NCBI RefSeq assembly: GCF_001613345.1
Contig: NZ_BDCE01000064.1
Coordinates: forward strand, 62,001-126,000
Direction: 5' to 3'
DNA: 64,000 nucleotides
Source of the DNA: Nocardia uniformis NBRC 13702
GTDB taxonomy: Bacteria > Actinomycetota > Actinomycetes > Mycobacteriales > Mycobacteriaceae
This document shows positions 6,283 through 23,753 of the stretch, piece by piece. The stretch's first letter is position 1. The number at the start of each line of letters is the position of its first letter. Below the pieces are notes generated by a model. The model saw nothing but the letters and a program-made list of their open reading frames with translations. It made no database searches and was not told the origin of the DNA. The position numbers were made by a program, and so were the translations under genes.

Positions 6283-6933
6283 ATGCAAGTTGTGTCCAAG
6301 ACGTATTCGAGCGCTGAGCGGGCCTACCTGGAAGTCAAAGAGCGCATTCTGGGCGGGGTGCTGCCGGGCGGTGAGCTGGTCAGTGAGAACGAGATCGCGG
6401 GCGAACTCGGAATGTCGCGGACACCGGTGCGGGAGGCGTTCCTGCGGCTCGAGACCGAGGGGTGGATGCGGCTGTATCCGAAGCGCGGCGCACTGGTGGT
6501 ACCCGTACCACCGAACGAGGCCGAGGATGTGGCGCATGCGCGGTATGTGGTGGAGACAGCCGCGGTGCGGGCGCTGGCGGTGAGTGATCGAGCCGGGCTC
6601 ATGGCGGAGCTACGCGCTTCACTGCAGCGGCAGCGAGCGCTCGCCGAGGTACCGGATTTCGATGAATTCGCCGTGGTGGACGCCGATTTCCATCGTGCGT
6701 ACGTGGTGGCGGCGGGGAATCCATTGCTGACGGGTTTCTACGACTCACTGCGTGAGCGGCAGCGGCGGATGAACAGTGCGGCGCTGCGGCACGGTGGAAT
6801 CGATACCGGCCGGATTATCGAACAGCACCAGCGACTGGCGGATCTGATCGAGGCCGGGGACCCGGACCGCTTCGCGAGCGGGCTGGCAGCTCATCTGACC
6901 CAGGTGCACGGTGTCGCCCTGCGGGGTCTGTGA
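6283..6933 (+). CDS. GntR-family (FCD) transcriptional regulator
   Basis: A 216-residue regulator. A winged HTH occupies residues 8-75 (GGELVSENEIAGELGMSRTPVREAFLRLE), followed by an all-helical FCD ligand domain with the metal-binding acidic/His positions DADFHRAY near 127 and HLTQVHG near the end. Its stop overlaps the start of the MFS gene, so the two form an operon and it probably controls the transporter. The start codon lies inside GCAT-CTAGT-ATGC, which could be an autoregulatory site. Confidence 0.9.
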   Translation: MQVVSKTYSSAERAYLEVKERILGGVLPGGELVSENEIAGELGMSRTPVREAFLRLETEGWMRLYPKRGALVVPVPPNEAEDVAHARYVVETAAVRALAVSDRAGLMAELRASLQRQRALAEVPDFDEFAVVDADFHRAYVVAAGNPLLTGFYDSLRERQRRMNSAALRHGGIDTGRIIEQHQRLADLIEAGDPDRFASGLAAHLTQVHGVALRGL

Positions 6934-8150
6934 TGGCCACACTGACAACCGTCGAACACCACCCGGCACGCACGTCCACCCGCGCCTGGTGGTCCGTCGC
7001 GGCCACCATATTCGCGATCGCCTGGGGCGGAAACGAGTTCACGCCGCTGCTGGTGATGTACAAACAGGACGGACTACCGCTCACCACGGTGGATCTTCTG
7101 CTGTTCGAGTACGTCTTGGGCATCGTGCCCGCACTCCTGATCGGCGGCCCGCTGTCGGACCGCTACGGCCGCCGCCCGCTCATGCGCCCCGCTCCCCTGG
7201 TCGCCGCGGCCGGATCGCTGCTGCTGGCCTTCGGATCCGATTCCGTGCCAATGCTTTCCGCGGGCCGGGTATTGAGCGGTGTAGCCCTCGGACTGGCCAT
7301 GGCCGTCGGCAGCAGCTGGCTCAAGGAACTCTCACAGCCACCGTTCGCATCCGAAACCGCCGCGGGCACCGGGGCGCGCCGGTCGGCGATGAGCCTGACC
7401 GGTGGATTCGCGGTGGGAGCCGGTGTCGCTGGCGTGCTGGCGCAATGGGCTCCGCTGCCGGAAACGCTGACCTATCTGATCAATGCGGCGCTCTGTGTCG
7501 CCGCGGCGGCCTGGCTGGCACGCATCCCGGAAACCGCGGCACCCCAGCCGAATCCGACACGCCTGGTGGACGACCTGAAGGTTCCGGCCGCCGGGCATCG
7601 GCGTTTCCGCTTCATCGCGCTACCCATCGCCCTGTGGCTGTTCACTTCCTCCGCAACGGCATACGCCATCATGCCCACCCTCATGATGCCCCGCGTACAC
7701 AGCGCGCCCATCGCGTTCTCGGCCCTGATCACGGTGATCATGCTGGGTTGCGGCTTCGCCATCCAATCGGTCGCCCGTCGGATCGACCGGCCCGGCACCA
7801 TTCGCGGCGCGGTCCTCGCCCTGGTCCTGATCGCCTGCGGAATGGGTTCGGCCGCACTGAATTCCAGCATCCTCACGCTGTGGGCGACGATCGCCACCGC
7901 GGTCCTGCTCGGTGCGGGCTTCGGCATCGGCATGGTCGCCGGGCTCCAGGAAATCGAACGGATCGCCCGCCCCGGCGATCTCGCGGGTCTGACCGCTGTC
8001 TTCTACTCGGTTTCCTATCTGGGTTTCGGTGTCCCCGCCCTGATGGCCACCCTGCACATTGCCGGAATCGGCTATCCGGCAATGTTCACCGTCGCGGCGC
8101 TGCTGGCGGCGAGCAGCCTGGCTCTGCTCGCGCACGGTCGCCGCGGCTGA
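6930..8150 (+). CDS. MFS transporter
   Basis: A 406-residue major facilitator transporter with about 12 predicted helices. The loop 2-3 signature GGPLSDRYGRRPLMRPAPL lies near residue 73. The start is GTG 6930 or ATG 6933, overlapping the GntR stop (TGATG), so the two are co-transcribed. The substrate is not evident. The coupling to a FCD-type GntR suggests a small organic acid or aromatic compound. Confidence 0.88.
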   Translation: MMATLTTVEHHPARTSTRAWWSVAATIFAIAWGGNEFTPLLVMYKQDGLPLTTVDLLLFEYVLGIVPALLIGGPLSDRYGRRPLMRPAPLVAAAGSLLLAFGSDSVPMLSAGRVLSGVALGLAMAVGSSWLKELSQPPFASETAAGTGARRSAMSLTGGFAVGAGVAGVLAQWAPLPETLTYLINAALCVAAAAWLARIPETAAPQPNPTRLVDDLKVPAAGHRRFRFIALPIALWLFTSSATAYAIMPTLMMPRVHSAPIAFSALITVIMLGCGFAIQSVARRIDRPGTIRGAVLALVLIACGMGSAALNSSILTLWATIATAVLLGAGFGIGMVAGLQEIERIARPGDLAGLTAVFYSVSYLGFGVPALMATLHIAGIGYPAMFTVAALLAASSLALLAHGRRG

Positions 8151-8164
8151 CACCTCCGAACTCG

Positions 8165-9232
8165 TCAGTCGGACGCGACCAATGCGACGGCACGACGCGC
8201 GATGGCACCGCCGAGCTCCGCGGTTGTGGCGGTACCACCGAGGTCCGGTGTGCGGATCTGCCCGTCGCGCAGGACATCGCACACCGCACGATCCACCGCG
8301 GTAGCCGCGGCATGCTCACCGAGATGATCGAGTAGCATGGCTCCGGCGAGGATCTGTGCGACCGGATTGGCGATACCCTGTCCGGCGATATCGGGGGCGC
8401 TGCCGTGCACCGCCTCGAACATCGACGGCACCGTGCGGTCGGGGTTGATATTGCCGGAGGGGGCGAGGCCGAGCCCGCCGGTCACGGCCGCGGCGAGGTC
8501 GGACAGGATGTCGCCGAACAGATTCGACCCGACGATCACATCCAGCCGATCGGGGTGCAGCACGATTTCGGCGGCCAGCGCGTCCACATGCATCTCCCGG
8601 GTGGACACCTGCGGATATTCCTTGGCAATGCGCTCGAATACGCTGTCCCAATACGGCATCGAGTGCAGCAGCCCATTCGATTTGGTGGCCGAGCACAGGC
8701 GGCCGCCGCGTTCGGCGGCGCGTTCGAAGGCGTACCGAATGATGCGTTCACAGCCCACCCGCGTGAATACCGACTCCTGCAGGACGAATTCGTCCGGACG
8801 GCCGGGGTTGTGCATTCCGCCTATGGCGGAATACTCACCCTCCGAATTCTCTCGCACGATCAGGATGTCCAGATCCTCGGCGGTGCGGTCGCGCAGCGCC
8901 GATTCGGTGCCGGGCAGCAGCCGGACCGGACGCAGGTTCACGTACTGGCCGAAGGCCCGACGCAGCGGAATGAGCAACCCCCACAACGACACATGGTCGG
9001 GGACGCCCGGAAATCCGACCGCGCCGAGCAGGATCGCATCGCATCCGGCCAGCTGTTCGGGAGCGTCGGCGGGCATCATCGCGCCGGTGCGCAGGTAGTT
9101 CTCGCACGACCAGTCGAATTCTGTCCATTCGATCCCGGGCACCACCGCATCGAGCACTGCGACCGCCTCGGCGGTCACATCGACGCCGATACCGTCGCCG
9201 GGAATCGTCGCGATTCGGTAGGTCTGTTTCAC
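8165..9232 (-). CDS. Tartrate/D-malate dehydrogenase-type beta-decarboxylating dehydrogenase
   Basis: A 355-residue isocitrate/isopropylmalate dehydrogenase-family protein. Features are IPGDGIG at residue 9, DHVSLWGLLIPLRR near 80 (typical of the tartrate/D-malate branch), VRENSEGEYSAIGG near 135 with the substrate-binding region, the catalytic Lys in SATKSNGL near 190, the metal-binding Asp in GSNLFGDILSDLAA near 240, and the NAD motif HGSAPDIAGQGIANP. GTG 9232 overlaps the stop of the upstream aldehyde dehydrogenase (GTGA), so translation is coupled. It likely oxidatively decarboxylates a C4 hydroxydiacid in this catabolic cluster. Confidence 0.88.
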   Translation of the reverse strand: MKQTYRIATIPGDGIGVDVTAEAVAVLDAVVPGIEWTEFDWSCENYLRTGAMMPADAPEQLAGCDAILLGAVGFPGVPDHVSLWGLLIPLRRAFGQYVNLRPVRLLPGTESALRDRTAEDLDILIVRENSEGEYSAIGGMHNPGRPDEFVLQESVFTRVGCERIIRYAFERAAERGGRLCSATKSNGLLHSMPYWDSVFERIAKEYPQVSTREMHVDALAAEIVLHPDRLDVIVGSNLFGDILSDLAAAVTGGLGLAPSGNINPDRTVPSMFEAVHGSAPDIAGQGIANPVAQILAGAMLLDHLGEHAAATAVDRAVCDVLRDGQIRTPDLGGTATTAELGGAIARRAVALVASD

Positions 9233-10701
9233 AGTCGCACTCCGATGTACTTGGTTTCCAGGAACTCGTCGATACCGGTGCTGCCGCCTTCGCGACCCAG
9301 CCCGGATTCCTTCACACCGCCGAACGGTGCGGCGGGATTGGACACCACACCCTGATTCAGTCCCACCATGCCGGTTTCCAGCGCCTCGCACACCCGTAAT
9401 CCGCGCCGCAGATTCTCGGTGAAGACGTAGCCCACCAATCCGAACGGCGTGTCATTGGCCCGCACGACGACCTCGGCCTCGGTATCGAAGGTGCCGATTG
9501 CCGCGACCGGTCCGAAGATTTCGGTGTGGCACATCTCCGCGTCGTCGGGCACACCGGTGAGCACGGTCGCGGGATAGAAGTTCCCCGGGCCGTCCACCGC
9601 CGTGCCGCCGGTGCGCACGGTGGCACCCCGGCGAACAGCATCGGCGACCAGGCTCGTCACCTTCGCCACGGCGGCGGCGTCGATGAGCGGTCCGACGACC
9701 ACGTCGGGCTCGGTGCCCCGGCCCATCGGCAGGGCCGCCATGCGGGCGGTGAACCGCGCGGCGAATTCGTCGGCGATACCGTGCTGCACGAGGATTCGGT
9801 TCGCGGCGGTGCAGGCCTGCCCGATATTGCGCATCTTCGCCGCGAGCGCGCCCTCGACGGCCTCATCGAGATCGGCGTCGTCGAACACGATGAACGGCGC
9901 ATTGCCACCGAGCTCCATCGAGGTGCGCATGACGGTCCGCGCGCACTGTTCGAGCAGTTGTTTGCCGACCGCGGTGGAACCGGTGAACGACAGTTTGCGC
10001 GAGCGGCTGTCCAGAATGAGCGGCGTCATCACCGCGCCCGGTGCCGAGGTGGTGATCACATTCACGACCCCGGCGGGGACACCGACCCGATCCAGGATGT
10101 CGGCCAGCGCCAGCGTCGACAATGGCGTCTGCGCAGCGGGTTTCACCACACAGGTGCACCCGGCGGCCAGTGCCGGGCCGATCTTGCGGGTGGCCATGGC
10201 GAGGGGGAAGTTCCACGGTGTGATGAGCAGACTCGGGCCGACCGGCTGCCTGGTCACCAGAAAGCGTGATCCGCCCGCCGGTGCCGGTAGATACCCGCCG
10301 TCGAGGCGGACCGCCTCCTCGGCGAACCAGCGGAAGAACTCTGCCGCATAGGCGATCTCGCCACGCGCCTCGGCGAGCGGCTTACCCATTTCCAGGGTCA
10401 TGACGAGCGCGAGGCGTTCGGTGTCGGCGAGCAGCGCCCGGTGGGCGTTCATGAGGATGTCGCCGCGCTGCCGCGGCGGTGTCCGCGCCCACTGCGCCTG
10501 TGCCCGGTCGGCCGCGGCCAGGGCATCGAGCCCGGCGGTGGGATCGGCGTCGGCCACTTCGCACAGCAGCTGTCCGGTCGACGGATCGGTGACCGCCAGC
10601 GTGTCGGCTGTGGTCCGCCACTGCCCGGCGATGAAAAGGCCGGTCGGCACGGTATCTATCGCGGCGCGTTCGGCTGCGGTCAGGATGGTCTCGGTGATCA
10701 T
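9229..10701 (-). CDS. Succinate-semialdehyde dehydrogenase-like aldehyde dehydrogenase
   Basis: A 490-residue NAD(P)-dependent aldehyde dehydrogenase closest in pattern to succinate/glutarate semialdehyde dehydrogenases (GabD). Motifs are ITPWNFPLAM near residue 160, FTGSTAVGKQL near 240, the catalytic general base in MELGGNAPFIV near 265, the nucleophile Cys in NIGQACTAANRI near 298, and the C-terminal PFGGVKESGLGREGG. The gene is divergent from the aminotransferase across a 137-base region holding a 28-base palindromic operator, so the two enzymes probably act in sequence on an omega-amino acid. Confidence 0.9.
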   Translation of the reverse strand: MITETILTAAERAAIDTVPTGLFIAGQWRTTADTLAVTDPSTGQLLCEVADADPTAGLDALAAADRAQAQWARTPPRQRGDILMNAHRALLADTERLALVMTLEMGKPLAEARGEIAYAAEFFRWFAEEAVRLDGGYLPAPAGGSRFLVTRQPVGPSLLITPWNFPLAMATRKIGPALAAGCTCVVKPAAQTPLSTLALADILDRVGVPAGVVNVITTSAPGAVMTPLILDSRSRKLSFTGSTAVGKQLLEQCARTVMRTSMELGGNAPFIVFDDADLDEAVEGALAAKMRNIGQACTAANRILVQHGIADEFAARFTARMAALPMGRGTEPDVVVGPLIDAAAVAKVTSLVADAVRRGATVRTGGTAVDGPGNFYPATVLTGVPDDAEMCHTEIFGPVAAIGTFDTEAEVVVRANDTPFGLVGYVFTENLRRGLRVCEALETGMVGLNQGVVSNPAAPFGGVKESGLGREGGSTGIDEFLETKYIGVRL

Positions 10702-10766: not shown

Positions 10767-10794
10767 GCATATTGTCAACAATCCGACAATATGC
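10767..10794. promoter_or_regulatory. Probable GntR operator (site 1)
   Basis: A perfect 10-bp inverted repeat, GCATATTGTC-N8-GACAATATGC, lies in the divergent promoter region of the aldehyde dehydrogenase and aminotransferase genes. It contains ATTGTCAACAATCCGA (10771-10786), which recurs exactly at 15309-15324. TTGT-CA-ACAA has the form bound by FadR/GntR regulators. The gene at 16840 is the likely regulator. Confidence 0.7.
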
Positions 10795-10838
10795 GAATCT
10801 GCGCGGCGCGCACTCACGCGCCCGAGAGGCGGACCACC

Positions 10839-12080
10839 ATGACCGAGTTGTCCCCCGTCCTCAAACAAGCCACCCCCGTGACCGTCGATCACGGCTCCGG
10901 CTGCTACCTCTACGGCACCGATGGCCGCCGCTACCTCGACTTCACCGCCGGGATCGGCGTCACCAGCACCGGCCACTGCCATCCACATGTGGTGGCGGCG
11001 GCCCAGGCCCAGGTCGCCAGCCTGATCCACGGCCAATACACCACCGTGATGCATCGGCCGATGCTCGAACTCATCGAACGGCTCGGCGCGGTCCTGCCCG
11101 AGGGCCTGGACACGCTGTTCTTCGCCAATTCCGGCAGCGAGGCGATCGAGGCCGCGCTGCGCCTGGCCCGCCAGGCCACCGGACGGCCGAATGTCATTGT
11201 CTTCCACGGCGGATTCCACGGCCGCACCGTCGCGGCGGCCACCATGACGACCTCGGGCACCCGATTCTCCGCCGGGTTCAGCCCGCTGATGTCCGGGGTC
11301 CACGTGGCACCGTTCCCCACCGCGTACCGGTACGGCTGGACCGAAGAGGAGGCCACCGCGTTCGCGCTGCGCGAGCTCGACTATCTCTTCGCCACCATCA
11401 CCTCCCCCGCGGAGACCGCGGCGTTCGTGGTGGAGCCGATGCTGGGCGAGGGCGGCTATATTCCAGGCAACACCGGGTTCTTCCGCGGCCTGCGCGAACG
11501 TGCGGACCGGCACGGCATTCTGCTCATTGTCGATGAGATCCAGACCGGCTTCGGCCGCACCGGAAAGTTCTTCGGCCACCAGCACTTCGGATTCCGCCCC
11601 GATATCATCACCATTGCGAAAGGCCTGGCCAGCGGGTTCCCGCTGTCGGGCATCGCGGCGTCGCGCGAGCTCATGGCCCAGGCGTGGCCGGGATCGCAGG
11701 GCGGGACCTACGGCGGCAATGCCGTGGCCTGTGCCGCCGCGGTCGCCACCCTCGAGGTGATCGAATCGGAGGGGTTGGTGGACAACGCCGCCGCGCGCGG
11801 TGCGCGATTGCTCAGCGGCCTGCGCGACAGCGCCACCAAGCCCATCGGTGACGTACGCGGTCTCGGACTCCTCGCGGGTGCCGAGTTCACCACCGCGACA
11901 GGCGAACCCGATTCCGCGACCGCCGCCGCGGCGCAACGGCTCGCGGTCGAGAAGGGGCTGCTGCTGCTCACCTGCGGTGCGCATATGAATGTGGTGCGCA
12001 TGATCCCGCCGCTGATTGTGACCGATACTCAGATCGACGATGCGCTCGCGATCTGGTCGGCGGTTCTCGCCGAACTGTGA
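10839..12080 (+). CDS. Class III aminotransferase (4-aminobutyrate/omega-amino acid type)
   Basis: A 413-residue PLP enzyme. ATG 10839 follows GAGAGGCGG. Motifs are GCYLYGTDGRRYLDFTAGIG near residue 20, FANSGSEAIEAALR near 95, FHGGFHGRT near 120, IVDEIQTGFGRTGKFFG near 232, and IAKGLASGFPLSG near 258 with the PLP lysine. The family transfers amino groups from GABA or other omega-amines, giving a semialdehyde that the divergent dehydrogenase could oxidise. It is followed after 19 bases by a DUF3830 gene on the same strand. Confidence 0.9.
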   Translation: MTELSPVLKQATPVTVDHGSGCYLYGTDGRRYLDFTAGIGVTSTGHCHPHVVAAAQAQVASLIHGQYTTVMHRPMLELIERLGAVLPEGLDTLFFANSGSEAIEAALRLARQATGRPNVIVFHGGFHGRTVAAATMTTSGTRFSAGFSPLMSGVHVAPFPTAYRYGWTEEEATAFALRELDYLFATITSPAETAAFVVEPMLGEGGYIPGNTGFFRGLRERADRHGILLIVDEIQTGFGRTGKFFGHQHFGFRPDIITIAKGLASGFPLSGIAASRELMAQAWPGSQGGTYGGNAVACAAAVATLEVIESEGLVDNAAARGARLLSGLRDSATKPIGDVRGLGLLAGAEFTTATGEPDSATAAAAQRLAVEKGLLLLTCGAHMNVVRMIPPLIVTDTQIDDALAIWSAVLAEL

Positions 12081-12099
12081 ACCAGGAAGGGCAGGACCG

Positions 12100-12594
12100 A
12101 TGGCTCGCTACATCACCATCACGCTGACCAAGGCAGGCGTGACCTGCCGGGCCCGACTACTCGACGCGGAGGCCCCGCGAACATGTGACGCGGTGTGGGA
12201 CGCGCTGCCGCAGGAGGGCGACGCGTTCCACGCCAAATACGCCCGCAATGAGGTGTACACGCTGGTGCCGCGCCTTGTCGCGGCCCCGCGCCGAGAGAAT
12301 CCGACCGTCACCCCCATCCCCGGCGATGTCTGCCTCTTCGATTTCGAACCGTGGGAGATCGGCAATCCGGCCTACGGTTACGAACCCGGTTCGGCGGCGC
12401 ACCACAACCAGGGGGCAACCGATCTGGCCCTCTTCTACGGCCGCAACAATCTGCTCATCAATGGCGATCTGGGCTGGGTGCCGGGCAATGTCTTCGCGAC
12501 CATCGAAGACGGCCTGACCGACCTCGCCACCGCCTGCAACACCTTGTGGTTGCACGGCGTCCAGGGCGAGACCCTGGCGTTCGCCCGCGAGTAG
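12100..12594 (+). CDS. DUF3830 family protein
   Basis: A 164-residue protein opening MARYITITLTKAGVTCRARLLD with the family's EAPRTCDAVWDALP near residue 25 and conserved NEVYTLVP, GDVCLFDFEP, FYGRNNLLINGDLG and PGNVFA segments. ATG 12100 follows AGGAAGG. The fold is cyclophilin-like. DUF3830 genes often sit with amidases, aminotransferases and racemase-like enzymes, as here. The reaction is not established. Confidence 0.85.
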   Translation: MARYITITLTKAGVTCRARLLDAEAPRTCDAVWDALPQEGDAFHAKYARNEVYTLVPRLVAAPRRENPTVTPIPGDVCLFDFEPWEIGNPAYGYEPGSAAHHNQGATDLALFYGRNNLLINGDLGWVPGNVFATIEDGLTDLATACNTLWLHGVQGETLAFARE

Positions 12595-12901
12595 GCCCGC
12601 GCCCGGTATCGCGCCCCCGCTCCGTCATTCCGGCGTGCGCCGCGACACCCTCCGTCATTCCGGCCAAAACATGCCGGGATGACGGAGCGCGCCGATAGCG
12701 CGCATGCGGACTCGGCCAGTCGGTGGCGAGCGGCTTCACGGCTTCGACCGCTGTCATCGCCGCCACGCCAACGACTCCGGACATACCGAGGTTGCCCGCG
12801 CGATGTCGGCGCCCCGTCATCCGGCAGGCTTCGCCGGCACGACAGGGCGGCGCGGCGACATCACGGCAGCAAACGCCGCAATCGGCCGTATCGGGCGGCA
12901 G
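12595..12901. terminator. Intergenic region with terminator hairpin and repeated CCGTCATTCCGGC unit
   Basis: No gene is seen here. CTCCGTCATTCCGGC occurs twice (12620-12634, 12650-12664), and a one-mismatch inverse copy is at 12673-12687, so the second unit can form a 15-bp hairpin with an 8-base loop. It probably ends the aminotransferase-DUF3830 transcript and the converging amidase transcript. The unit looks like a dispersed REP-type repeat, though its copy number elsewhere cannot be judged from this window. Confidence 0.55.
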
Positions 12902-14302
12902 CTACCCGGCCAGCACGTACTCGGCGTAGCGCGCGACGGCGAGCACCAGATCATCGGAGTGCCGCGGCCCGACGATCTGCAGGCCGACCGGCAGCCCGGC
13001 GCGGGTGGTGCCCACCGGAATACTGATCGCGGGCTGCTGGGTGAGGTTGAACGGGTAGGTGAACGGTGTCCACTGCGCCCAGCTGTCCAGGCCGCTGCCC
13101 GGCGGTACATCGTGGCCTGCCTCGAATGCGGTGATCGGCATCGTGGGGGTGATCAGAACGTCGTAGGTGGTGTGGAAGGCGCCCATCCGGATACCGAGCT
13201 GCGCGGCCACATCGCGAGCCTTCAGATAGTCGACGGCACCGACGGATTCACCCCGCTCCCAGACGGCACCCAGTCCAGGGTCCACCTGTTCGCGCGCGCC
13301 GTCCGGGAAGTTCGACAGCATGGTCGCCGCGCCGACGGCCCACAGCAGTTCGAACGCCTCGAGTGGATCGGTGAAGCCCGGATCGGCCGCGGTGACCCGC
13401 AATTCGGCCTCGGCCAACTGTCGCACCGCCGTTTCCACGATCTCGGCGACCTCCGGATCGACCTCGGCGTAGCCGAGGTTCGCCGAATAGGCGACGGTGA
13501 GTCCGCGCACCTCTCGCCCAAGCTGGCCACGGAAGGTCGTCAGCGTCGGCGGCAGCGCCGTCGGATCGCGCGGGTCGGGCAATGACAGGATATCCATCAA
13601 CAGCGCCGCGTCCTCGACCGTCCGGGTCATCGGTCCCGCGTGCGCCAGTGGACCGAACGGGCTCGCCGGATACAGCGGGATCCTGCCGTGCGTCGGCTTG
13701 AAGCCCACAATGCCGCAGAAAGCCGCCGGAATGCGGATGCTGCCGCCGCCATCGGTGCCGACCGAGACCGGACCCATACCCGCTGCCACCGCGGCGGCGC
13801 TGCCACCGGACGAGCCGCCCGCCGTGGTCGCCGGATCGACCGGATTGCGGGTGATACCCGTCAGCGGGCTGTCGGTGACGGCCTTCCAGGCGATCTCGGG
13901 CGTTGTCGTCTTCCCGAGGAACACCATGCCGTCCTCGCGCAACCGCGCCGCGACCGGACTGTCCACCTGCCAGGGGCCAGCCGGATCGACCGATGTGGAC
14001 CCGCGCCGCGTGGGCCAGCCCTCGGTCAGGAAGATGTCCTTGATCGAAATCGGGACACCGTCGAGTAGCCCACGGGTGTAGCCGGAATGCCAGCGTGACT
14101 CGGATTCCTTGGCCTGCACCAGCGCTCGATCGGGATCGACCAGGCAGAAGGCGTTCAGCGCACCGTCGCGGGCCGTAATGGCCGCGAGTACCGCTTCGGT
14201 CGCCTCGACCGGTGAGAGGGCGCCTGCGGTGTAGGCCGTAACCAGTTCGACGGCGGTCATAGCGGCCGGTTGTGTCGCACTGTTGATGTCGGGGTAGCTC
14301 AT
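12902..14302 (-). CDS. Amidase (amidase-signature family)
   Basis: A 466-residue amide hydrolase. The catalytic Ser-cisSer-Lys triad is visible: Lys in PISIKDIF near residue 72, and the glycine/serine-rich signature GGSSGGSAAAVAAGMGP near 145 followed by TDGGGSIRIPAAFCG. ATG 14302 is used because MSYPDINSATQ leads straight into the domain; a longer upstream frame has no family similarity. It lies 13 bases downstream of the 2-hydroxyacid dehydrogenase, in one minus-strand operon. It may open a cyclic or linear amide in the local catabolic route. Confidence 0.9.
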   Translation of the reverse strand: MSYPDINSATQPAAMTAVELVTAYTAGALSPVEATEAVLAAITARDGALNAFCLVDPDRALVQAKESESRWHSGYTRGLLDGVPISIKDIFLTEGWPTRRGSTSVDPAGPWQVDSPVAARLREDGMVFLGKTTTPEIAWKAVTDSPLTGITRNPVDPATTAGGSSGGSAAAVAAGMGPVSVGTDGGGSIRIPAAFCGIVGFKPTHGRIPLYPASPFGPLAHAGPMTRTVEDAALLMDILSLPDPRDPTALPPTLTTFRGQLGREVRGLTVAYSANLGYAEVDPEVAEIVETAVRQLAEAELRVTAADPGFTDPLEAFELLWAVGAATMLSNFPDGAREQVDPGLGAVWERGESVGAVDYLKARDVAAQLGIRMGAFHTTYDVLITPTMPITAFEAGHDVPPGSGLDSWAQWTPFTYPFNLTQQPAISIPVGTTRAGLPVGLQIVGPRHSDDLVLAVARYAEYVLAG

Positions 14303-14315
14303 AGCTGGCTCTCCT

Positions 14316-15281
14316 TCAGCCGGGCACGTACCCCAGCTCCTTGTCGACCACATTGTTCAACGGCCGGCCGGCGATCCAATTGTCGAAGTTCTCGGTGAAA
14401 GCGGTGACGACCGCGGTTCGCCACCCGATGAAATCCCCGGAATTGTGTGGGGTGATACGTACGTTCGGCAGATCCCACAGTGGGTGCTCAGCCGGGAGCG
14501 GCTCCGGATTCACCACATCGAGTGCCGCTCCGGAGATCGATCCTGTCGTGAGCGCGGCGATAAGGTCGTCGGTCACAACGAGTTCCCCGCGGCCGACGTT
14601 GATAAACCTCGCGTGCGGCTTCATTGCGGCAAATGCTCTGGCGTCGAACATTTTCCGGGTCTGTGCCGTCAGCGGCGCGACGGCCACCACATAGTCGGCG
14701 GCGGGCAGTTCGGCATACAGATCCGCACCGACCGCGCCGAAATCCGGATCGGATGTCCGGGCGCGCCGACCCACCGCGCGCACCGTCATACCGGCCGCCC
14801 GCAGCAATCGCGCCACGCTGCGGCCGATCGGACCGGTCCCGACAATCAAGACGGAGGCCCCCGCGATCCGCTCAGATTCGCGATGATGCCACTCGTGTCG
14901 TTGCTGAAGTCGCAGCGATCCCGCCAGATCCTTGGCGAAACCGAGGATCTGCCCCAGTACGTATTCCGCTATGGCGGTGTCGAATACCCCGCGCGTATTG
15001 GTGACCACCACCTCGCTGGCCCGCAGTTCCGGAAACATTGCCGGATCCACTCCGGTCGAGCCCATATGTAGCCAGCGCAGCCGATCGGCCGCCGGCCAGG
15101 CGGCGGGTATCGCGCGGGTCAGGAAGTCATAGACGAACAGCGCATCGGCGCCGCGCAAGGCGTCTGCCAATCCGGCTGCTTCGGTATAGCGCACAGTGGC
15201 TCGACGTGCCACGGGGGCCATGAGATCCGCCCCCGGCACATTGTCACTGTGCAGGACGACAATATTGGGGCCCGCTTCCAC
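14316..15281 (-). CDS. D-isomer-specific 2-hydroxyacid dehydrogenase
   Basis: A 321-residue NAD(P)-dependent oxidoreductase. The Rossmann motif VGTGPIGRSVARLLRAAG lies near residue 140. The catalytic Arg/Glu/His region appears as INVGRGELVV near 225, ALDVVNPEPLPAEHPLW near 250 and ITPHNSGD near 273. It reduces 2-oxoacids to D-2-hydroxyacids or the reverse. It heads an operon with the amidase and is divergent from the first maleate-isomerase-like gene over a region holding operator site 2. Confidence 0.88.
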   Translation of the reverse strand: MEAGPNIVVLHSDNVPGADLMAPVARRATVRYTEAAGLADALRGADALFVYDFLTRAIPAAWPAADRLRWLHMGSTGVDPAMFPELRASEVVVTNTRGVFDTAIAEYVLGQILGFAKDLAGSLRLQQRHEWHHRESERIAGASVLIVGTGPIGRSVARLLRAAGMTVRAVGRRARTSDPDFGAVGADLYAELPAADYVVAVAPLTAQTRKMFDARAFAAMKPHARFINVGRGELVVTDDLIAALTTGSISGAALDVVNPEPLPAEHPLWDLPNVRITPHNSGDFIGWRTAVVTAFTENFDNWIAGRPLNNVVDKELGYVPG

Positions 15282-15308
15282 GTTGACACACTAAGATCGC
15301 ATCGTATG

Positions 15309-15324
15309 ATTGTCAACAATCCGA
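15309..15324. promoter_or_regulatory. Probable GntR operator (site 2)
   Basis: ATTGTCAACAATCCGA repeats exactly the core of the operator at 10771-10786. It sits between the divergent 2-hydroxyacid dehydrogenase (start 15281) and maleate-isomerase-like gene (start 15368). The outer palindrome of site 1 is not conserved here, so the 16-base core is probably what is recognised. Confidence 0.65.
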
Positions 15325-15367: not shown

Positions 15368-16108
15368 GTGGAACTCAGCTTTCCCGATATAGAAGGCCCC
15401 GTCGCACAGCGGGGTATCGGGGTTATCGCACCGTTCGACCTAGCGCTGGAACGAGAACTCTGGCGGTGGGCTCCGCTGGACGTCAGCCTGCACCTGGCCC
15501 GCACTCCCTATGAACCGGTCCCGGTGTCGCTGACAATGGCCGAACTGGTGTCCAATCCCGCGCACTTGACTGCGGCGACCCGCGACGTGCTGCACGTGGA
15601 GCCCGAGGTGGTTGCCTATCTGTGCACCTCGGGCAGTTTCATCAAGGGCCTGGCGTACGAGAGGTCATTGCGCGACACCATCTGCGCGGCCGGTGCGCGC
15701 GATGCCGTCACCACCTCCGGTGCGCTCGTGGAGGCGATTCGGCATCTGGATATCACCAGGGTTTCGGTGCTCACCCCCTACGACGAGATCCTCACGAACA
15801 AGCTGCGTGATTTCCTGGCCGAGGCGGGCTGCACCGTAATCCGTTCCGACCACCTCGGTTTGGGCGGCGGTATCTGGAAGGTCAATTACCGCACCATCGC
15901 CGAACGCATTGTCGGGGCCGATGACCCCGACGCCCAGGCAATTTTCGTCAGCTGCACCAATCTCCCGACCTATGACGTCATCGAACCGCTCGAAAAGGCG
16001 CTCGGTAAGCCCGTGCTCACCGCCAACCAGCTCACCATGTGGGCGTGCCTGGGTCGGATGAAGTTGCCGATGATGGGTCCGGGAAAGTGGCTACTCAACG
16101 TTTTCTGA
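15368..16108 (+). CDS. Maleate isomerase/arylmalonate decarboxylase-like Asp/Glu racemase-superfamily enzyme
   Basis: A 246-residue protein with GTG start. Both catalytic cysteines of the maleate cis-trans isomerase type are present: YLCTSGSFIKG near residue 82 and FVSCTNLPTYDVI near 198. The ending PVLTANQLTMWACL is also typical. It is the first gene of a three-gene operon with a second homologue and a GntR regulator. A role in isomerising or decarboxylating a dicarboxylate is likely; the substrate is unknown. Confidence 0.85.
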   Translation: MELSFPDIEGPVAQRGIGVIAPFDLALERELWRWAPLDVSLHLARTPYEPVPVSLTMAELVSNPAHLTAATRDVLHVEPEVVAYLCTSGSFIKGLAYERSLRDTICAAGARDAVTTSGALVEAIRHLDITRVSVLTPYDEILTNKLRDFLAEAGCTVIRSDHLGLGGGIWKVNYRTIAERIVGADDPDAQAIFVSCTNLPTYDVIEPLEKALGKPVLTANQLTMWACLGRMKLPMMGPGKWLLNVF

Positions 16109-16121
16109 TCGGAAGTACAGC

Positions 16122-16853
16122 ATGCAGGCACCCACCGTCGGTTTCATCTATCCCGATCACGCGGCCGAGGACGACTACCCGCTGGCCGCGGCGGTCCTCG
16201 GCGCGCGACTTCCGGTGGCGCACATCTACGGGACCGATCTGCACGCCATTCCCGAACTGCTCGATCTGGGCAGCCCGGACAAGCTGCGGCACGGTGCCGA
16301 ACTGCTCGCGCCACACCGGCCGGATGCGGTGGTATGGGCCTGCACCTCGGGCAGTTTCGTCTACGGACCGCGGGGGGCACGCGACCAGGTACGGGCACTG
16401 TCGGAGGTCGCGGGCGTACCGGCGTCCAGCACCGGCCTGGCCTTCGTCGCGGCGGCGCAGGCGCTCGGCGTACGCCGGGTCGCCATCGCCGCCAGCTACC
16501 CCGACGAGGTGGCGCGGCTGTTCGTGGAGTTCCTGGCCGACGCCGGGATCGAGGTGGTCTCGCTGTCGAGCGCGGGGATCGACACCGCCGCCGAGGTGGG
16601 CACGCTGACCGCAGCGCAGGTGCGCGAATTGGCGGTGACCAACGATCATCCGCAGGCGCAGGCACTGCTGATTCCGGATACCGCCATGCACACCCTCGGC
16701 GTACTCCCGGAATTGGAGTCCGCCCTCGGCAAGCCGGTACTGACCGCCAACCAGGTCACTATCTGGGAAGGACTGCGCCTGGCCGGCCACACCGCGGCCA
16801 GCGCGACCCTCGGCACCCTCTTCTCGGAAAGGCACGTACATGTCGGTCGTTGA
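16122..16853 (+). CDS. Second maleate-isomerase-like protein lacking one catalytic Cys
   Basis: A 243-residue paralogue of the preceding gene. The first cysteine is kept in WACTSGSFVYGP near residue 73. At the position of the second cysteine it has LLIPDTAMHTLGV (near 185), with no Cys. The C-terminal PVLTANQVTIWEGLRLAGH is conserved. Loss of one of the two catalytic Cys residues should abolish classical racemase/isomerase chemistry and points to a different reaction or to a partner subunit for the 15368 protein. Its 3' end overlaps the GntR gene by 14 bases. Confidence 0.8.
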   Translation: MQAPTVGFIYPDHAAEDDYPLAAAVLGARLPVAHIYGTDLHAIPELLDLGSPDKLRHGAELLAPHRPDAVVWACTSGSFVYGPRGARDQVRALSEVAGVPASSTGLAFVAAAQALGVRRVAIAASYPDEVARLFVEFLADAGIEVVSLSSAGIDTAAEVGTLTAAQVRELAVTNDHPQAQALLIPDTAMHTLGVLPELESALGKPVLTANQVTIWEGLRLAGHTAASATLGTLFSERHVHVGR

Positions 16854-17508
16854 GTTCGAGCCGGTGAACCGGCAGTCGACCGCGGAAATGATCGCGGACC
16901 GACTACGGGAGGCGATCATGCGGGGCGCAGTCGCGCCCGGCGACCAACTCGGCGAGGCCGATCTCGCGGCGCGATTCGGGGTATCGCGCGGTCCGGTCCG
17001 GGAGGCGATGCAGCGATTGGTCTCCGAGGGGCTGCTGCACAGCATCCGCAATCGCGGCATCTTCGTCATCGACCTGGCCTTCGACGATGTGGTCGATATC
17101 TATCGGGCCCGGACCGCCATCGAGACCGGGGCCCTCGCGCTCATTCTCGACGGCCGCCGGGAAATCGCCTATGCCGCGCTCGGTCCCAGCGTCACCGATA
17201 TGTGCGAGCGCGCCGAAAACGGCGATGCCGTCGGGGTTTCCGATGCCGACCAGGCGTTCCACGAGGCCCTGGTCGACAGCGCGGGCAGCCCGCGCCTGGT
17301 GCGCGCGGCTCGCACCCTGCTGATCGAAACCCGAATGTGCCTGGGGGCCTTGCAGACCACCTATCCGGACCTGCGCGAGCAGGCTCGCGAGCACGTCGAG
17401 CTGCGCGAAGCGATCGGGGCCGGACCGATTCTCCGGGCCCGCACCCTGCTGGCCGAGCATATGGACGATGCCGTGCAGCGGCTGACGAGAGGTAAGTCCG
17501 CGAACTGA
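16840..17508 (+). CDS. FadR-type GntR regulator of the catabolic cluster
   Basis: A 222-residue regulator. The winged HTH spans residues 15-80 (GDQLGEADLAARFGVSRGPVREAMQRL), and the helical FCD domain carries the conserved RTAIETGAL, DQAFHEALV and HMDDAVQRL positions. ATG 16840 lies inside the end of the preceding gene, so it is co-transcribed with the two isomerase-like genes. It is the best candidate to bind the shared ATTGTCAACAATCCGA sites. FCD proteins bind small carboxylates, which fits the cluster. Confidence 0.9.
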   Translation: MSVVEFEPVNRQSTAEMIADRLREAIMRGAVAPGDQLGEADLAARFGVSRGPVREAMQRLVSEGLLHSIRNRGIFVIDLAFDDVVDIYRARTAIETGALALILDGRREIAYAALGPSVTDMCERAENGDAVGVSDADQAFHEALVDSAGSPRLVRAARTLLIETRMCLGALQTTYPDLREQAREHVELREAIGAGPILRARTLLAEHMDDAVQRLTRGKSAN

Positions 17509-17587: not shown

Positions 17588-17659
17588 ATGATTCCGCAGT
17601 TCATCAACCAGATTGTCGGTATGGTCTCGACCCTCATGACGACACTTCTGATCCCGTAG
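17588..17659 (+). CDS. Possible 23-residue hydrophobic peptide
   Basis: ATG 17588 follows AGAGGAAGGACAAGG and opens MIPQFINQIVGMVSTLMTTL..., 23 residues, uncharged and strongly hydrophobic or amphipathic. A clear hairpin terminator starts 12 bases after the stop, so the ORF forms a compact monocistronic unit. It is too short for similarity to judge. It could be a membrane-active or regulatory peptide, or chance. Confidence 0.4.
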   Translation: MIPQFINQIVGMVSTLMTTLLIP

Positions 17660-18723: not shown

Positions 18724-18845
18724 TCAGCCTTCGGCGGCCAACTGCCCGCAGGCGGCGGCGATTTCCTGGCCGCGGGTATCGCGGACGCCATGCGCAACGG
18801 ATATACAGCTCCGCCGACCACGTTCACCACACGCTTGGGGAACGT
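18724..18845 (-). pseudogene. rlmN 3' remnant A (leftmost, heavily deleted)
   Basis: About 60 bases match the rlmN 3' end ([12 protein letters not shown] on the minus strand, with altered stop context). After a divergent stretch, GACCACGTTCACCACACGCTTG matches a segment roughly 500 bases upstream in rlmN (the RVV-AVRR region). It is therefore an internally deleted copy. It marks the left edge of the array and may be what is left of the original chromosomal 3' end. Confidence 0.7.
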
Positions 18846-21028: not shown

Positions 21029-21085
21029 CACCGCGCGCTGGACAGCAATCCGTGTCCTTCGTCGCGGATATGACTATCTGTCGAC

Positions 21086-21655
21086 TCAGCCTTCGGCGGC
21101 GAGTTGCCCGCAGGCGGCGGCGATTTCCTGGCCGCGGGTATCGCGGACGGTGCAGGGGACGCCCTGTTCGTTGACGCGGCGAACGAACTCGCGCTCAACG
21201 GGTTTCGGGCTGGCATCCCATTTGCTGCCCGGGGTCGGGTTCAGCGGGATGACGTTGACGTGGACGCGGGAGCCGAGGGCCTTGTGCAGCTTCTTGCCGA
21301 GCAGGTCCGCGCGCCAGGGCTGGTCATTGATATCGCGGATCAACGCGTATTCGATGGAGACGCGGCGGCCGGACTTGTCGGCGTAATACCGTGCGGCGTC
21401 GAGGACTTCGGCGACCGACCAGCGGTTGTTCACCGGGACCAGGGTGTCGCGGAGTTCGTCGTCGGGGGTATGCAGGGAGACGGCGAGGGTGACCGAGAGA
21501 TCCTCATCGGCCAGCTTGCGGATAGCGGGGGCCAGGCCGACCGTCGAGACGACGACATTGCGCTGGGAGATACCGAGGCCGTCGGGGGCCGGAGAGGTGA
21601 TGCGGCGGACCGCGTTCACCACACGCTTGTAATTGGCGAGCGGTTCGCCCGTGCC
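21086..21655 (-). pseudogene. rlmN 3' copy B (frame intact from GMGEPL to stop)
   Basis: About 190 codons of RlmN from (T)[10 protein letters not shown] through [42 protein letters not shown] and [12 protein letters not shown]. The frame is open and uninterrupted. The N-terminal half, including the radical-SAM cysteine motif that precedes GMGEPL in the family, is missing. Upstream, where intact RlmN reads NVVFMGMGEPL, this copy reads [11 protein letters not shown] because of the element-end sequence. It is one of the three longest copies. Confidence 0.9.
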
Positions 21656-21657
21656 CC

Positions 21658-21682
21658 CCGTTTTACAAACACGCTGACCAGC
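21658..21682 (-). other. Conserved rlmN junction/attachment-like sequence (copy B)
   Basis: CCGTTTTACAAAC-ACGCT-GACCAGC on the plus strand, directly right of the rlmN homology. The same sequence, with few changes, abuts copies C, D, E, H and I. It is not part of rlmN, so it probably marks one end of an inserted element. Confidence 0.7.
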
Positions 21683-22863: not shown

Positions 22864-23180
22864 TCTTCGACGCGCTGGCGGCGAACGTAGTTGCCAACGT
22901 CGAAATTGTTGCGGCCGTCGCTGATTCCACCCCGGAGTCCGACCCCGAACCGCCAGACAAGTTCTGGCATGAGCACACTCGAATCCTGCTCACCGAGGTC
23001 CGCCCCGATACCGACGCCGACCTGCTGGCGACGCTGCTGCTCAACACACTGTCAGGAAGCCCCGTGCTGCGCCTGATTCGAGACGGGCATGGAACCCGCT
23101 ATATCGACAGCGTCCGCACACTTATCACCTCGGTGATAAGTGCAGGCGCAGCCTCAACTCATCCCTCGGCGGCGAGTTGA
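22864..23180 (+). pseudogene. TetR regulator C-terminal fragment (copy of 48605 gene)
   Basis: About 100 residues nearly identical to the C-terminal half of the TetR gene at 48605 ([54 protein letters not shown]). The DNA-binding half is missing. As in the intact gene, the last codons (HPSAAS) and stop lie within the antisense strand of an rlmN 3' end, so TetR and rlmN were duplicated together. Confidence 0.85.
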
Positions 23181-23727
23181 CCGCAGGCAGCAGCGATTTC
23201 CTGGCCGCGGGTGTCGCGGACCGTACACGGCACACCCTGTTCGTTGACGCGCCGAACGAATTCGCGCTCAACAGGTTTCGGGGCGGCGTCCCACTTGCTG
23301 CCCGGGGTCGGTTCAACGGGATGACGTTCACGTGCACACGGGAGCCGAGAGCCTTGTGCAGCTTCTTGCCGAGCATGTCCGCGCGCCATGGTTGATCGTT
23401 GATGTCGCGGATCAGGGCGTATTCGATCGATACCCGGCGGCCGGACTTGTCGGCGTAATACCTTGCGGCATCGAGGACTTCAGCGACCGACCAGCGATTG
23501 TTCACCGGCACCAACGTGTCGCGGAGTTCATCGTCGGGGATGTGCAGCGAGACCGCGAGGGTGACCGAGAGATCCTCATCGGCCAGCTTGCGGATAGCGG
23601 GGGCCAAGCCCACGGTGGAGACGACGACATTGCGCTGGGAGATACCGAAACCGTCGGGGCGGGTGAGGTGATGCGGCGGACGGCGGCGACTACCCGCTTG
23701 TAGTTGGCGAGGGGTTCACCCATGCCC
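23159..23727 (-). pseudogene. rlmN 3' copy C (frameshifted)
   Basis: A full-length 3' copy from [12 protein letters not shown] to [13 protein letters not shown] base is missing near 23312 (GGTCGGTTCAAC where copy B has one more G), and another frame change lies near 23660. The amino-acid sequence is close to copy B, but many third positions differ, so it is not a recent duplicate. The left end overlaps the TetR fragment. Confidence 0.88.
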
Positions 23728-23728
23728 A

Positions 23729-23753
23729 CCGTCTTACAAACGCCGCGACCAGC
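23729..23753 (-). other. Conserved rlmN junction sequence (copy C)
   Basis: CCGTCTTACAAAC-GCCGC-GACCAGC, the same element-end sequence as at copy B with few changes, directly abutting the rlmN homology. Confidence 0.65.

Follow-up and report, generated by a model that had tools for sequence, protein, structure and literature searches.

The closest described parallels to the gene cluster studied here are the EutABCDE-Ssd-Atf and DoeABCD systems for ectoine degradation (S. meliloti, R. pomeroyi and H. elongata). PMC5924519 presents the EutABCDE route as a proposal, most of which had not been biochemically evaluated. In one of its figure legends, some ectoine clusters include a gene for a hydroxyacid dehydrogenase, and the regulator EnuR is assigned there to the MocR/GabR sub-family, which has an aminotransferase-like sensor (PMC5320631). 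Putative Gram-positive clusters (Bacillota and Actinomycetota) were found via EutD and EutB in a 2026 report, which calls them provisional and gives them EhuABCD or BCCT transporters and, in some cases, eutA (PMC13188858). Here we describe a cluster in a 64,000-nucleotide stretch of Nocardia uniformis NBRC 13702 (contig NZ_BDCE01000064.1, positions 62,001 to 126,000; hereafter the window), in which two copies of a predicted operator almost certainly tie a set of catabolic genes into one regulon. Our literature searches, of partial coverage, returned no paper recognisable as describing this gene set.

From left to right, the cluster consists of TTC (a tartrate dehydrogenase-type gene), a gene resembling succinate-semialdehyde dehydrogenase (SSADH), site 1, and genes for an aminotransferase, a DUF3830 protein, an amidase and a D-2-hydroxyacid dehydrogenase, followed by site 2, EutA1, EutA2 and an FCD-GntR regulator (Table 1). 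Shared with the EutABCDE and DoeABCD systems are EutA-like proteins, a class-III transaminase and an SSADH-like enzyme; in relatives of the cluster, the same predicted operator also accompanies Ehu transporter and DoeA-type hydrolase genes. What sets the window apart from those systems is its amidase, DUF3830, hydroxyacid dehydrogenase, tartrate dehydrogenase-type enzyme and additional EutA paralogue. Its cluster is Gram-positive like those of PMC13188858, but lacks the EutD and EutB by which those were found. Its regulator (hereafter 16840, from its start position) is an FCD-GntR protein and not EnuR. Both belong to the GntR superfamily and are presumed to be substrate-induced repressors of catabolic clusters, but 16840, unlike EnuR, carries an FCD domain. 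In combining a GntR winged helix-turn-helix with FCD, it resembles the FCD/FadR-subfamily regulators, which use short palindromic operators of this kind.

The window holds exactly two copies of the 16-mer ATTGTCAACAATCCGA, at 10771-10786 and 15309-15324, both on the + strand. Each copy lies between divergent enzyme genes, as the first-pass annotation had stated: site 1 separates the SSADH-like gene (-) from the aminotransferase gene (+), and site 2 the hydroxyacid dehydrogenase gene (-) from an EutA-like gene (+). At up to three mismatches the window holds four matches against 0.29 expected, a count reached in 0/100 dinucleotide shuffles. The two weaker matches (18274 and 19258) fall within open reading frames (ORFs) matching a sigma factor and an epoxide hydrolase. 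The core of the 16-mer is the palindrome ATTGT-CA-ACAAT. In the whole assembly (8,766,665 bases) this core, ATTGTNNACAAT, was found in three places and a reversed-pattern control in none; TTGTCNACAATCCGA occurs twice. The third core copy (C52:228009) was rejected as an operator because it sits in a coding ORF, presumably for a lumazine synthase-like protein, and both intergenic core copies of the assembly thus belong to the cluster. On the minus strand of site 2, TTGACA stands 17 bases from TAGTGT (read by eye), and a bound dimer would therefore cover a plausible leftward -35 element.

We followed the sites through 148 genomes of the same genus. EutA1 was present in 96, the aminotransferase in 97 and TTGTCNACAATCCGA in 98, the last being all 96 with EutA1 plus G110 and G122. 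In G122 the contig stops at the hydroxyacid dehydrogenase. G110 (locus L122) keeps the hydroxyacid dehydrogenase, site 2 and the regulator, and EutA1, EutA2 and DUF3830 were not found in the stretch examined; here the operator lies between the hydroxyacid dehydrogenase and regulator genes, directly preceding the latter (12312-14051 of the locus). An extra TTGTCNACAATCCGA match on another contig of G077 (L126) has no cluster gene within 19 kb around it. A count of site 2 that gave 183 rows covers both strands, and its rows do not correspond to 183 loci.

Counts over 80 loci refer to the first 80 other same-genus loci, with the window excluded, and 74 of these stretches extend 9.1 kb or more upstream of EutA1; counts over 97 loci include the window. 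TTGTCAACAATCCGA lies at most 120 bases upstream of EutA1 in 80/80 loci; the full ATTGTNNACAAT is present in 75 of them, and the other 5 differ at its first base. Upstream of the aminotransferase, ATTGTNNACAAT was found in 97/97 loci. The site by the hydroxyacid dehydrogenase, with at most one mismatch, was found in 96/97; in the 97th (L087) that side is cut by the search range, and the site is present at -69 from EutA1. Where the two halves of the cluster are megabases apart, the sites are still there. The aminotransferase and EutA modules lie at 2.09 and 3.55 Mb of one contig in G087; in G142, again on a single contig, their positions are 4.96 and 2.48 Mb. Both unlinked aminotransferase modules retain the palindrome, and an inverted module in G090 retains its own site. 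Such retention is not expected of a functionless repeat. On this comparison, the conservation pattern (97/97 and 80/80) is one of selection on the sites.

The association extends beyond Nocardia. A tally of named loci covered 32 of 80 (L230-L261), drawn from Rhodococcus, Hoyosella, Janibacter, Georgenia, Occultella, Amycolatopsis, Allokutzneria, Mycobacteroides, Mycobacterium and one Nocardia metagenome-assembled genome (L233); the other 48 were same-genus loci. The palindrome is upstream of the aminotransferase in 32/32 and upstream of EutA1 in all 26 with EutA1 in range, and nine Amycolatopsis loci have a third site between EutA1 and EutA2. Among 396 genomes of the phylum, EutA1 (E up to 1e-40) was found in 19, and the same 19 carry DUF3830 at more than 187 bits, a line set after the scores were seen (187.6, then 114.1); in a further 23 genomes DUF3830 was matched at no more than 114 bits. 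Together with synteny, this co-occurrence supports the first-pass grouping of these genes as one pathway. Of the 19 genomes, 16 lie outside the genus, and 11 of these have a 16840-type regulator. The palindrome was found in 10 of these 11 and in none of the 5 without the regulator, four of which belong to one family (f4/g7) and the fifth to a fragmented assembly. Regulator absence in L178 and L307 (G351) is weak evidence, as both are short contigs, and L173 and L308 overlap in the same genome. Across 13 loci of regulator-bearing outgroup genomes there were 26 palindromes, against 0 in 100 mononucleotide shuffles.

We conclude that the 16840 protein is very probably the regulator of both operators, through predicted binding and repression. 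The first-pass annotation had noted a FadR-type GntR in the cluster and proposed a shared operator; the GntR and FCD domains bear out the former, and site conservation, persistence in unlinked modules and covariation with the regulator outside the genus strongly support the latter. The winged-helix stretch VSRGP-RE--QRL is invariant in 12/12 aligned orthologues of 16840. No characterised orthologue was found, the best NCBIfam match (phnR_burk, 111.7) being far under its cut-off of 271.5; the EhuR model gave 19.1 bits against a cut-off of 480. The arrangement in G110, with site 2 directly before the regulator gene, suggests that 16840 autoregulates. Two observations weigh on the other side: the regulator gene lies outside the stretch examined in 8 of the 32 named loci, and G211 has the regulator but only one-mismatch sites, in the two expected intergenic regions.

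Two other explanations of the sites were considered. The operators could be owned by a different regulator, such as the nearby gene at 6283-6933, whose product is also an FCD-GntR protein and which ends about 3.8 kb from site 1. This is very unlikely, as that gene and its MFS partner were detected in 0/80 other same-genus loci that keep the sites, against 80/80 for the 16840-type gene, which adjoins EutA2 on the same strand in each, and outside the genus the sites track the 16840 family. We rejected the 6283 gene as owner because it is not conserved with the cluster. That the 16-mer is a functionless repeat, arisen by chance or recent duplication, fits a window with only two copies of it, but the probability is negligible given the sites in other genera and in unlinked modules and the contrast between the outgroup palindromes and their shuffles. 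Relatives that keep the genes keep the sites, and no random loss was seen.

Under regulation by 16840, an FCD-GntR dimer would bind ATTGTNNACAAT at 10771 and 15309 and repress two divergent pairs of transcription units, SSADH-TTC with aminotransferase-DUF3830 and hydroxyacid dehydrogenase-amidase with EutA1-EutA2-regulator. Since the regulator gene lies in the last of these units, 16840 would regulate itself. Release would come from the substrate or an intermediate of the pathway.

Table 1 Predicted operators and genes of the cluster (positions in the window).
Feature	Positions	Strand or sequence	Basis and remarks
Operator 1, predicted	10771..10786	palindrome ATTGT-CA-ACAAT 10771-10782, then CCGA, overlapping further ACAAT	exact repeat, genus conservation
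Operator 2, predicted	15309..15324	palindrome 15308-15321 GATTGT-CA-ACAATC; candidate leftward -35 TTGACA inside	exact repeat, genus conservation
TTC, tartrate / D-malate-type decarboxylating dehydrogenase	8165..9232	-	PF00180; TIGR02089; adjoins SSADH gene in most, not all, same-genus loci
SSADH-like aldehyde dehydrogenase	9229..10701	-	PF00171; TIGR01780 SSADH 554.9 bits, under cut-off 646.35
Class-III aminotransferase	10839..12080	+	PF00202; closest solved: 4-aminobutyrate (GABA) aminotransferases
DUF3830 protein, cyclophilin-like fold	12100..12594	+	PF12903 201.6 bits; one solved relative 3kop, about 59% identical
Amidase-signature hydrolase	12902..14302	-	PF01425; NF004815 755.8 bits, over cut-off 506
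D-2-hydroxyacid dehydrogenase family	14316..15281	-	PF02826; closest solved: D-2-hydroxyacid dehydrogenases, related reductases
EutA1, EutA / arylmalonate decarboxylase-maleate isomerase family	15368..16108	+	PF17645; both Cys kept
EutA2, EutA1 paralogue, second catalytic-type Cys -> Asp	16122..16853	+	PF17645
FCD-GntR regulator	16840..17508	+	PF00392 77.3 bits, PF07729 66.7 bits, both over cut-off

The cluster probably degrades an ectoine-type compatible solute, namely ectoine itself, 5-hydroxyectoine or a closely related derivative. We base this on the two EutA-family proteins and, in relatives, on transporters and on the hydrolases of two loci, L306 and L177. Five same-genus loci (L035, L037, L039, L047 and L051) have EhuBCDA genes downstream of TTC and in the same orientation, with about 0.3-0.5 kb between matches. 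EhuBCDA genes adjoin DUF3830 in 4/4 f4/g7 loci, and Ehu genes also occur in L175, L178 and L179. L175 has one palindrome each before a ProP-like gene, EutA2, EutA1 and the Ehu operon, and its EhuB (267.4 bits), EhuC (263.7) and EhuA (375.6) are each over their cut-offs. The best solved match of this EhuB is 2q88/2q89, which we take to be S. meliloti EhuB, at 223.8 bits (next 65.3). The Glu, Arg and aromatic positions that we believe form the ectoine pocket are kept, the aromatics with Phe/Tyr/Trp exchanges. In L174 and L176, the longest ORF of the BCCT gene has a palindrome at its start. L306, in the same genome as L175 and 87 kb from its EutA1 locus, carries four palindromes, which precede genes for a hydroxyacid dehydrogenase, an M24 hydrolase, DUF3830 and an aminotransferase. 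The hydrolase is of the DoeA/EutD type, with 43.7% identity to S. meliloti EutD across 391 residues, and matches the solved ectoine hydrolase DoeA (6twk) at 352 bits, the next family reaching 78. In L177, from a different genome, a weaker DoeA relative (149.7 bits, next 92) lies beside a palindrome.

Several results count against an ectoine-type substrate. EutB, EutC, EutD and EutE have no match in the window at E 1e-5, and at the same threshold there is no Ehu, BCCT or ProP relative there (Ueh and Tea were not searched). EutD exceeds its cut-off in 0/59 same-genus genomes, and S. meliloti EutB, EutC and EutE queries, which pass their own models as controls, find nothing in 208 loci (EutE at E 1e-15). 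The best EhuB-like gene of the N. uniformis genome (202, cut-off 190.9) is on an operator-free contig (C44). EhuB is over its cut-off in 16/59 same-genus genomes, one of which (G016) is without EutA1, and EhuB labels also occur beside 5-oxoprolinase genes; the label is no proof of ligand. Both EutA-family proteins are well under the EutA cut-off (TIGR02990: EutA1 104 bits, EutA2 106.7, cut-off 318), and the aminotransferase shares only 30-33% identity with its counterparts in two rhizobial ehu clusters. The L306 hydrolase reaches 416.5 against the TIGR02993 equivalog cut-off of 613, which the L177 hydrolase also misses, and the ProP-like genes score 402-470, under the ProP cut-off of 544. The resemblance to SSADH was rejected as evidence for ectoine, as solved succinate-semialdehyde dehydrogenases (closest, 3jz4) are very near as well and the likeness is not diagnostic.

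A rival reading is a true 16840 regulon acting on another nitrogenous substrate, such as a betaine, an N-acyl amino acid or a cyclic amide, with the transporters and hydrolases reflecting family breadth. The lack of EutB, EutC and EutE in the 208 loci, the ProP scores and the GABA aminotransferases as closest solved transaminases would suit this alternative, as would DUF3830 and EutA relatives in unrelated contexts, beside branched-chain ABC genes (Caballeronia) and 5-oxoprolinase genes. We nevertheless consider it unlikely, since the three transporter families linked in relatives are all of compatible-solute groups and the 352-bit DoeA relative has its own operator. As substrates to try, the first-pass annotation had put forward cyclic imides, omega-amino acids and unsaturated diacids; the evidence points to an ectoine-type compatible solute instead. 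Degradation of pantothenate, nicotinate or lactams was also considered and set aside, though no search was aimed at these pathways.

The cluster is not a textbook eutABCDE system. We rejected that assignment because EutB, EutC, EutD and EutE were not found and the window has no such transporter. Elsewhere in the N. uniformis genome there was no EutE match and no EutD over the cut-off, and the best EutB (247.3, cut-off 413.35) and EutC (54.9, cut-off 471.65) matches are on other contigs. The Nocardia pathway would thus either use another enzyme for ring opening or act on a derivative.

We compared the EutA pair and DUF3830 with their relatives. Identity to S. meliloti EutA is 33% and 29% for the two EutA homologues. 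In EutA1, C86 and C196 are invariant in 20/20 aligned sequences, giving the two cysteines typical of the Asp/Glu racemase / maleate isomerase superfamily. EutA2 lacks this pair: Asp186 replaces the second Cys in 17/17 sequences and Ser the first in 4/17. EutA2 is a consistent paralogue and may work paired with EutA1. DUF3830 has many invariant polar residues in the alignment. Its predicted structure (mean pLDDT 79) is closest to 3kop, with the Pictet-Spenglerases KslB (E 1.3e-6, TM 0.68) and McbB (E 9.0e-6) next; ordinary cyclophilins score more weakly and rank after these. The fold matches to KslB and McbB make DUF3830 a candidate imine/amidine enzyme. A search of plasmids with DUF3830 gave one remote match, and a full-text search of a partial literature collection found no paper on it. 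TTC scores 482.6 bits to tartrate dehydrogenase (TIGR02089, cut-off 470.4) and 461.3 to NF006048, under that model's cut-off of 501.

In the pathway that we propose, ring opening and deacylation by the amidase, perhaps with DUF3830, would come first, followed by stereochemical adjustment by EutA1/EutA2. The terminal amine would then be transaminated, the semialdehyde oxidised and the product passed to central metabolism via TTC and the hydroxyacid dehydrogenase. Deacylation, the task of EutE, could fall to the amidase, and the aminotransferase and SSADH could stand in for Atf and Ssd. TTC would suit a route in which 5-hydroxyectoine is broken down without loss of its hydroxyl group, with the hydroxyacid dehydrogenase as reductase: 3-hydroxy-diaminobutyrate would be transaminated and oxidised to 3-hydroxyaspartate, then converted to oxaloglycolate or tartrate and on to glycerate. 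Every reaction of this pathway is inferred, as are binding, repression and the substrate, whereas comparative sequence analysis shows the operators, how well they are conserved and their link with the regulator. The more specific combination, an EutBCDE-independent actinobacterial ectoine route in which DUF3830 is a new enzyme acting on the cyclic amidine or a derived imine, the 5-hydroxyectoine hydroxyl is kept, EutA1/EutA2 set the stereochemistry and an FCD-GntR protein in place of EnuR is in control, seems to us rather improbable when taken as a whole. Outside Nocardia, a Glu/Leu/Val dehydrogenase-family gene joins the cluster in L241, L243, L244, L246, L173, L174, L176, L177 and L307, with a palindrome alongside in L174, L176 and L177; this gene might take over from a transamination step.

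Some further features lie within or near the cluster. Upstream of it, the FCD-GntR gene at 6283-6933 is followed by an MFS gene from 6930. No counterpart of this pair (6283-8150) was detected at the 80 other same-genus loci, and it could have been inserted separately. Inverted, REP-like CGTCATTCCGGC units at 12617-12690, between the convergent DUF3830 and amidase genes, are perhaps a terminator. After the regulator gene, a 23-codon ORF at 17588-17659 (MIPQFINQIVGMVSTLMTTLLIP) could encode a small membrane-active peptide. Three related partial repeats (18724-18787, 21081-21682 and 23154-23753), the two long ones 88% identical over 603 aligned bases, have a translation resembling what we take to be the C-terminal part of RlmN and are possible repeated insertions or gene remnants.

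As an account of the whole, we favour a two-operator FCD-GntR catabolic regulon for an ectoine-type solute, as judged from comparative genomics. The analysis provides a defined predicted operator and regulator, present in several families of actinobacteria, for catabolic genes to which no substrate had been assigned, and it names a testable substrate class. If correct, it would give DUF3830 a role and would show how actinobacteria consume ectoines, which, according to PMC13188858, had not been shown in Gram-positive bacteria.

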